NCBI GenBank assembly: GCA_027460465.1
Contig: JAPZAV010000001.1
Coordinates: forward strand, 1-56,604
Reading direction: 5' to 3'
Source of the DNA: Candidatus Methanoperedens sp.
Lineage (GTDB): Archaea > Halobacteriota > Methanosarcinia > Methanosarcinales > Methanoperedenaceae
Length of the DNA: 56,604 nucleotides
A model generated the notes under the pieces. The model had not been told where the DNA came from, searched no databases, and saw only the letters and a program-made list of their open reading frames with translations. Made by a program: the position numbers and the translations under genes. Each line of letters begins with the position of its first letter. The first letter of the stretch is position 1. Shown piece after piece: positions 5,923 through 7,710 of the stretch.

Positions 5923-6156
5923 TTACTCACGACCTGTATTCAATATTCAGTCGCATTCCATATATAATAAGCCTATCGATAATAAAAATATCCCTTTCAT
6001 GCTTTATGGGAAAAAGAAAAGCTTATTATCATCATGAATTATCTCTCTGGTGAGAGTTAATATTCATACCTGAAGGTGAAAATATATAATTGGTGCAAGA
6101 GAATATCTGGAAGGTATCGGGAAAACAACCAGTGATGCTGATATCCAGGGGAAACC
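5923..6156. promoter_or_regulatory. Divergent intergenic region with AT-rich promoter elements
   Basis: The 234-base spacer separates divergent genes. TATA-like stretches lie near 5961-5970 (ATATATAATA) for the minus gene and near 6080-6090 (AAATATATAATT) for the permuted binding-protein gene. A short CTCTCT/AGAG fold lies near 6045. No RNA gene is seen. Confidence 0.35.
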
Positions 6157-7212
6157 ATGAAAAAATATATTTATATCAGCATTATTTTATCAATAGGTTT
6201 ACTGATAATTTTATTTGCAGGTATGACTCTATTTGAAAAAGATGGTGCTCAAAAGCGGATTTATGTTGTATCCCTGACCCCGGATGAAATGCTGTCAGGT
6301 CTCAAGAACAGAACCATAGCAGGATTCATCTCATGGGAACCCTACCCGGCAGAGGCGGTGGCTGAGGGATATGGAAGGTATCTTGTCAATTCAACGGACA
6401 TCTGGGAAAACCATCCTGAGTGCGTGCTTGCTGTCTCAGGAAATCTCAGAGACGAAAAAATGGTAAGAGCTCTCGTCTGGGCGCAGATAAAGAGCACAAG
6501 GTTCATCAACGATCCCGCAAACCGGGAAGCAGTCCTTCAATACAGTTCTGAATTAACAGGAATGGATAAGATGACTTCAGCAGCAGCGATCAATAACACG
6601 ATATTTATCGAATTTCCTTACATGAGCGAGATGAAAAAAGGATTCGAGATACTGAACAATGCCGGTGGTTTCAAAAAGGATCCAGCATCCCTGGGCTATA
6701 AGGATGCGGACGATTTTCTATCCAAGATAATATCTGACAGATATTACAATGAAATCAGAAGAAATCTTGATTCTGATCCAGACTGGACTCCCCCCGCTGT
6801 TAATGGAAGCCTGAGAGTGGGAATCATAGAAAAAGATATTCATAATCTGGGTATGTATGTTGCACAGAAAGAGGGCTACTTTGAACGCATCGGCCTTATC
6901 CAGGACAGGAATCTTTATTTCTTGAAATTCAGGAACGGAAGGGCAATTACAACTGCCTTCAGCCATCGTGATGTAGATGCTGCGGTTTTTGGTGCGACCC
7001 AGGTTCTCAGGTATGCGATAGACGATAACGGAAAGATCTATATTGTCAGCGGGGCGAACACTGGAGGAACTGCGCTCGTGGTGAGAAAGGATTCTGATAT
7101 CAGCTCCATTGATGACCTGGACGGCAAAACAATCGCCACCCCTGGTTTTGGCTCAATCCAGGACGTTATAATGAGAAAGATGTTTGAAAGTTTTGAGATA
7201 AGGACGGTGTAG
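6157..7212 (+). CDS. Membrane-anchored ABC substrate-binding protein with circularly permuted lobes
   Basis: The protein has 351 residues and an N-terminal membrane/signal segment (about 4-24). Residues 33-205 correspond to the second part of an NMT1/SsuA-type binding protein: RIYVVSLTPDEMLSGLKN, then FISWEPYPAEAV and the long C-terminal helices. Residues 217-351 correspond to the first part: GSLRVGIIEKD, LGMYVAQKEGYFERIGL, then DLDGKTIATPGFGSIQDV and a stop just after FEIRTV. Joined end to start, the two pieces make one complete binding protein, so the order is permuted. It could also be a remnant of a tandem two-domain gene. No permease or ATPase gene is adjacent. The ligand is unknown; relatives bind nitrate, sulfonates or thiamine precursors. 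Confidence 0.7.
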   Translation: MKKYIYISIILSIGLLIILFAGMTLFEKDGAQKRIYVVSLTPDEMLSGLKNRTIAGFISWEPYPAEAVAEGYGRYLVNSTDIWENHPECVLAVSGNLRDEKMVRALVWAQIKSTRFINDPANREAVLQYSSELTGMDKMTSAAAINNTIFIEFPYMSEMKKGFEILNNAGGFKKDPASLGYKDADDFLSKIISDRYYNEIRRNLDSDPDWTPPAVNGSLRVGIIEKDIHNLGMYVAQKEGYFERIGLIQDRNLYFLKFRNGRAITTAFSHRDVDAAVFGATQVLRYAIDDNGKIYIVSGANTGGTALVVRKDSDISSIDDLDGKTIATPGFGSIQDVIMRKMFESFEIRTV

Positions 7213-7215
7213 AGC

Positions 7216-7710
7216 ATGAAAATAGGCATAATTTCGGATACACATGACAATTTAACGGCTATTGATGAGGCAGCAAAGATCTTCAAGAAGGTGGGAGCTG
7301 GCCTGATCATCCATGCTGGAGACTGGAACGCTCCATTTTCACTGGTCAGGCTTGCCATGGCAAAGATCAGGATAGTGGGGATCTTTGGAAACGTGGATGG
7401 TGAACGGGAGTATTTAAAGACGAAGGCAAAAGATACGGGTGCAGAACTGCTCGGGGAATTTGGAGAATTAGAGATAGAAGGAACTAAAATGGCCATAATT
7501 CATGGAAAAGATGAACGGATCGTGGATGCACTGGCGAAAAGCGGCCAGTACAGCGCAGTGATCAGAGGGCATACCCACAAACAGGAGGTCAGGGAATTGG
7601 GTTCAACACTCGTCATAAATCCTGGAGAGGCGTGTGGGTATCTTACAGATAAAAGAACTGTTGCGATTTTGGATACCTTGAACCTGGAAGTTGAAGTGAT
7701 CGAATTTTGA
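7216..7710 (+). CDS. YfcE/MJ0936-type metallophosphoesterase
   Basis: The 164-residue calcineurin-like phosphodiesterase has the expected metal-binding motifs in order: ISDTHDN (7-13), HAGDW, FGNVDGE, HGKDE and RGHTHK. The length matches the single-domain archaeal family (MJ0936), which hydrolyses phosphodiester model substrates and cyclic nucleotides in vitro; the natural substrate is unknown. It starts 3 bases after the truncated end of the binding-protein gene and may share its transcript. Confidence 0.85.

Follow-up and report, generated by a model that had tools for sequence, protein, structure and literature searches.

Does a gene whose product carries the two halves of an SsuA/NMT1-like substrate-binding protein (SBP) in swapped order encode a working protein, and, if so, what does this protein do? 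The question is raised by a gene on the forward strand (positions 6157-7212, stop codon included; 351 amino acids) of a 56,604-nucleotide stretch of DNA from the methane-oxidizing archaeon Candidatus Methanoperedens sp., hereinafter the window, which encodes a permuted, membrane-anchored SBP of this type. An earlier note, made from the sequence alone, recognized the swapped halves, placed the break points at residues 351 and 33, and offered two readings, a functional sensor or a relic of a tandem duplicate.

The permuted gene and its predicted fold

The protein starts with a single transmembrane (TM) helix lacking a lipobox cysteine (residues 2-25, positions 6160-6231), which is apparent in the sequence and is a helix in the AlphaFold2 (AF2) model, followed by a flexible linker between the anchor and the binding module (residues 26-32, 6232-6252; pLDDT below 50 at residues 24-30). 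Judging from this hydrophobic helix and the missing lipobox, the protein is predicted to be exported to the cell surface. Segment B (residues 33-205, 6253-6771), assigned to the classical C-terminal half by profile match and conserved columns, contains the strands and helices of lobe II and then the C-terminal helices of lobe I, with conserved WEP (60-62), W83, H86-P87, and C89. A new linker (residues 206-216, 6772-6804) connects the old C-terminus to the old N-terminus. Segment A (residues 217-351, 6805-7209), assigned in the same way to the classical N-terminal half, includes the conserved residues H229, G261, G279, N301, and G304 and the GFGSIQ motif (330-335), and ends past the first helix of lobe II.

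The Pfam profile NMT1_2 (PF13379) aligns its positions 151-249 with residues 32-128 (6e-26 and 92.2 bits for the whole protein; cut-off 24.7), and NMT1 (PF09084) aligns its positions 5-116 with residues 231-347 (9e-11, 42.5 bits; cut-off 20.5), so that the classical second half comes first and the first half last. Collinear N-to-C coverage by either profile is absent in the native order and appears only when the halves are rejoined (217-351 followed by 33-205), a search that the earlier note had suggested: NMT1_2 then covers positions 19-249 of 252 in a single stretch at 106 bits (previously 92), and NMT1 covers positions 5-209 with the score rising from 42.5 to 52.0 bits. Thus, the window protein is a permuted derivative of the NMT1_2/SsuA-like SBP family rather than an ordinary member. 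Against the NCBIfam SsuA_fam model, it scores 81.7 bits, below the curated cut-off of 163.5, with the match split by the permutation. The nearest solved proteins by sequence are the bicarbonate-binding CmpA and the nitrate-binding NrtA, both in classical order; the search with the rejoined order also reached an SsuA structure.

AF2 modeling from an alignment of 54 permuted homologues yielded one closed two-lobe fold (pLDDT 94.2, pTM 0.86), not two separate pieces, with poor definition only in the linker behind the N-terminal helix; a permuted protein from the ABC-operon class described below was modeled equally well (pLDDT 92.0, pTM 0.86). Foldseek aligns structures in chain order, so that a permutation is not directly visible to it. 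Searched against the PDB, neither the window model (best query TM 0.37 among the matches listed) nor the ABC-class model (best query TM 0.40 among the matches listed) gave a collinear full-length match, yet classical SsuA, NrtA, and CmpA structures are present in that database. The top collinear match of the window model was OpuAC, a weak partial alignment at the query TM of 0.37. The order of the predicted strands, taken together with the profile matches, puts the cut within lobe II, where it separates the first helix (334-342) from the strand at 33-39. The break points given in the earlier note are correct, and the single N-terminal helix that it proposed as an anchor is borne out by prediction.

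A TATA-like element (GAAAATATATAATTG, 6078-6092, forward strand, read from the sequence), a candidate archaeal promoter, lies about 65 nucleotides before the ATG in the gene's own upstream region. A metallophosphoesterase gene on the same strand (7216-7710) starts 3 nucleotides past the stop codon and is probably cotranscribed with the SBP gene; it is not part of the sensor cluster discussed below because the other copies lack such a neighbor.

Conservation and domain orders in the family

Full-length homologues with the same permuted order and 55-71% identity are present in most genomes of the genus Methanoperedens, so the permutation in the window is not a chance event. The order recurs in Archaeoglobales and Methanomassiliicoccales, and altogether more than 100 intact homologues with partner genes, from several archaeal orders, have it, which settles in the affirmative whether relatives have the same arrangement. 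A scan of GTDB species genomes recovered 74 loci, including ones from Archaeoglobales and Methanomassiliicoccales, all archaeal where the taxon was given, although the search patterns were degenerate but limited and the archaeal-only matches are uninformative about bacteria. Further homologues came from surveys covering 393 genomes from the same phylum and 243 genomes from the phylum of locus L163; in viral contigs, the patterns matched 11 stretches, none of them a relative.

Unique SBPs were typed for domain layout using profiles for four segments (A1, A2, B1, and B2). The B-A order of the window protein was found in 100 of these and in 12 longer ones (400-440 amino acids), and the classical A-B order in 35. 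A third order, A2-B-A1, is represented by 12 SBPs from Methanomassiliicoccales (L170:1801-2970 and 11 from loci L226-L237). In two further SBPs that are unrelated to each other (L197:4704-5789 and L200:4890-6038), the cut is at the lobe crossing (hinge) inside A2; the L200 protein ends in a PGF-CTERM-like tail, and the L197 protein starts with a TAT-like lipoprotein signal. Finally, one tandem B-A-B-A protein of 709 amino acids (L168:3888-6017) consists of two permuted units, the first of which is decayed, having lost the WEP and GxGxxQ motifs. This tandem arose later, by duplication of a gene that was permuted already, and illustrates that tandem duplication does happen in this family. Hence, the family encompasses at least four domain orders, including two cut points beyond that of the window protein.

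A maximum likelihood tree was built from an alignment in which the halves were restored to one order (69 rows, 280 columns). A branch with 99/97 support separates the main permuted group, which includes the window protein, from a group containing nearly all classical rows. The A2-B-A1 proteins make up one group (98/92) that lies within the permuted group, as does a classical-order SBP (L232:934-2049), a possible return to the original order; the data do not demand such a reversal (AU test of the exclusion of L232, p 0.155). The two hinge-cut proteins belong to different, well-supported classical groups. The 400-440 amino acid B-A proteins, from other methanogens, fall outside the main permuted group, but a single origin of the B-A order is compatible with the AU test (p 0.275), and we do not claim two. 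With the bacterial A-B order taken as ancestral, the tree requires no fewer than four permutations: B-A once, A2-B-A1 once, and the hinge cut twice.

These observations bear on the reading of the window gene as a functionless relic, left over when a tandem duplicate lost its outer halves. Tandem copies do exist in the wider family, the L168 protein being the case in point, and tandem duplication is the usual route to circular permutation; accordingly, the ancient permutation may well have arisen through duplication followed by loss of the ends. As an account of the present gene, however, a relic is ruled out by the conserved order, common to the intact homologues and their partner genes across several orders, and by selection on both halves, leaving it only a very slim chance. 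In NG86 comparisons with five relatives, dN was 0.19-0.28 and dS 1.3-2.5, alike in both halves; both are under purifying selection at a dN/dS near 0.1, a value that is only rough because dS is near saturation. The window copy contains no internal stop and no frameshift and keeps every invariant column of its 47- and 54-row alignments. The earlier note had named an intact tandem in sister genomes, with the window copy alone truncated, as the sign of decay, and none was found. The host genome is a draft in 176 contigs, which lends some plausibility to an assembly or prediction artefact, two pieces of a classical gene having been swapped; the same order in independent assemblies from many groups and in two paralogues within the host genome rules this out, and we regard the remaining chance as negligible. 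Of the two readings in the earlier note, the relic thus falls away, whereas the sensor gains from the conserved order, the predicted fold, the selection, and the kinase genes beside relatives of the window gene.

Operon context and candidate ligands

Methanoperedens genomes encode two permuted subfamilies. In the ABC class, the gene of a lipoprotein SBP (lipobox AGC) precedes genes for a BPD_transp_1 permease and an ABC ATPase, which together make up a complete importer. The window gene falls in the TM-anchored class, which is associated with signal transduction genes. In 25 of the 28 complete TM-anchored copies, a dCache histidine kinase gene lies immediately upstream of the SBP gene, with a 4-nucleotide overlap in the cases inspected. 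The usual operon order is a small MarR-like HTH protein, an HTH-receiver response regulator, the kinase, and the permuted SBP, with dCache_1, HAMP, HisKA, and HATPase_c domains on the one hand and Response_reg with HTH on the other. The kinase is missing beside the other three complete copies: the window gene, L039 (where the regulators are kept), and L040. At the window locus, no kinase, regulator, permease, or ATPase adjoins the gene, in line with the earlier observation that no permease or ATPase is adjacent.

The host genome contains two further permuted paralogues, among them the lipoprotein SBP L006 with its complete ABC operon. Its only complete operon combining HTH protein, response regulator, kinase, and permuted SBP is broken by an assembly gap, being split over contigs C62 and C153, the ends of which overlap exactly by 139 bp. 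Decayed TM-anchored copies were also observed (L063:1453-2379, 308 amino acids; L064:5998-6288 and L083:5998-6288, 96-amino acid fragments), one of them joined to the start of a kinase gene. A classical SBP near a kinase (L094) is not the same arrangement: the kinase N-terminus is different, and the genes are 0.3 kb apart. SsuA-like, presumably cytosolic proteins of about 300 amino acids without a signal peptide are encoded on host contig C168 (L007:6358-7290) and at L208:4037-4915, between coenzyme M genes and a permuted SBP.

The classical, B-A, and hinge-cut SBPs share a neighborhood in which an HTH regulator (cluster c8) is near the SBP, followed by permease and ATPase, an arrangement suggesting in-place permutation of the SBP. 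Every layout retains, in most of its rows, H229, G261, G279, G304, S/T305, Q335, P62, H86, and C89. Permuted transporter rows of the tree sample all have the first cysteine of the HPCC motif, which is mostly lost in the TM-anchored class (HP[E/S/G/C]C or a variant), so that the ligand may differ from that of the transporters.

Cysteate synthase and sulfopyruvate decarboxylase make precursors of coenzyme M (CoM). Genes for cysteate synthase (TIGR03844, 528 bits) and a fused sulfopyruvate decarboxylase lie inside the SBP-permease-ATPase operon of both a hinge-cut (L200:1442-3976) and a B-A locus (L208:1702-4040), which points to CoM or a sulfonate as the ligand. In Methanosarcina acetivorans, expression of ssuA and ssuC, described as a CoM-specific ABC transporter, rises under CoM starvation (PMC12068725); almost all methanogens carry ssuABC as a CoM transporter, and some Methanomassiliicoccales lack CoM synthesis genes (PMC10658910). 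From these operon links and reports, the ancestral ligand of the family is probably CoM or another sulfonate. Some Archaeoglobales permuted operons adjoin MtaA-like, corrinoid, AcsV-like, and MtrH-family genes, making a methylated compound an alternative ligand. Such genes lie upstream of the SBP at the Archaeoglobales loci L129, L130, and L132, with an MtrH-family gene at all three.

Proposed role and relation to known systems

We consider the window protein to be a working permuted type II SBP of an archaeal SsuA-like family, probably the CoM/sulfonate importer family, that in Methanoperedens and a few relatives was recruited to sense ligands while tethered to the membrane; we put the probability of this reading at about 0.62. 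Under this scheme, a sulfonate-like ligand would close the two lobes outside the membrane, and the closed SBP would contact the dCache domain of the kinase and change the phosphorylation of the response regulator. With the new N-terminus, the tether sits on lobe II and no longer on lobe I. The window protein is most likely a sensor subunit; as a kinase-less paralogue, it may serve the one complete kinase operon of the host in trans or, alternatively, could act alone as a binding protein. Because the kinase has a ligand-binding dCache domain of its own, the SBP might also be a passenger.

Two other roles have to be weighed against the sensor. The tethered SBP could serve an ABC importer in trans, delivering its ligand to the permease and ATPase that the lipoprotein-type operon encodes elsewhere in the genome. 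Such an operon, complete and with a permuted SBP, does exist in the host, and the two classes have many pocket columns in common; still, identity to the ABC-class SBP is only about 30%, that operon has a cognate SBP gene of its own, and nearly all TM-anchored copies adjoin a kinase instead, so that we find this role unlikely. Similarly improbable, in our judgment, is that the TM-anchored class works while the kinase-less window copy is a former sensor being lost: the kinase is missing at this locus as well as at L039 and L040, and decayed members of the class exist (the 308-amino acid L063 copy and the 96-amino acid fragments at L064 and L083), but the intact reading frame, the preserved invariant columns, and the roughly estimated dN/dS of about 0.1 in both halves argue against decay. 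A broader scenario beyond the sensor reading is that the archaeal CoM/sulfonate importer SBP was permuted repeatedly in place, beside an unchanged set of regulator, permease, and ATPase, the tether moving each time to another point of the two-lobe body, and that one line became the tethered sensor of a kinase, with permutation helping to turn transport into a signaling receptor; we advance this tentatively, as possible rather than likely.

SBPs of the SsuA/NrtA/CmpA/TauA type (PF13379, PF09084, TIGR01728) resemble the window protein in the sequence of both halves, the bilobed type II fold, and the cleft motifs, but the window protein differs in the swapped halves, a TM anchor in place of a lipid or signal peptide, and the lack of an ABC partner at the locus. 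Binding proteins encoded beside a sensor kinase, as in TorT-TorS, AioX-AioS, and LuxP-LuxQ, are thought to work via the sensory domain; to our knowledge, none of these is permuted, and the window case differs also in being archaeal and in lacking the kinase at the locus. The SsuABC CoM transporter of methanogens (PMC12068725, PMC10658910; genes as named there) includes an SBP of the same family, and permuted relatives keep the order of c8 HTH regulator, SBP, permease, and ATPase, whereas the window SBP is permuted and has no transporter genes beside it.

Natural permutation of a membrane-tethered SBP has a precedent in TpMglB-2 of Treponema pallidum, assigned to "Type Ic," which still binds its ligand and whose authors raised the idea that permutation may suit tethering (PMC4990184). 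That protein is bacterial, binds a sugar, and has a type I fold with another cut point; the window protein, type II, SsuA-like, and archaeal, lies outside Type Ic, which combines a type I fold with a permuted N lobe. The glycine-betaine-binding proteins OpuAC and ProX, related by a circular permutation found with CPSARST (PMC2395249), are type II SBPs as in the window case, but their family and ligand are different. In the literature covered, which includes few of the subscription journals, we found no report of a permuted SsuA/NMT1-family protein, of a permuted SBP from an archaeal importer family in which several cut points occur, or of one paired with a kinase. Thus, permuted SBPs are already known in two other families, and the SsuA/NMT1 case is, as far as we found, new.

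Families of orthologous operons in which the classical and permuted orders coexist with additional cut points and a tandem form are rare, which makes this SBP family a natural experiment on how permutation arises and how it affects an allosteric two-lobe receptor. Given that profile searches split permuted SBPs, as with the window protein that scores below the SsuA cut-off, such transporters and sensors may be under-annotated. The family also offers a lead on sulfonate sensing and import in archaea that need or make coenzyme M.
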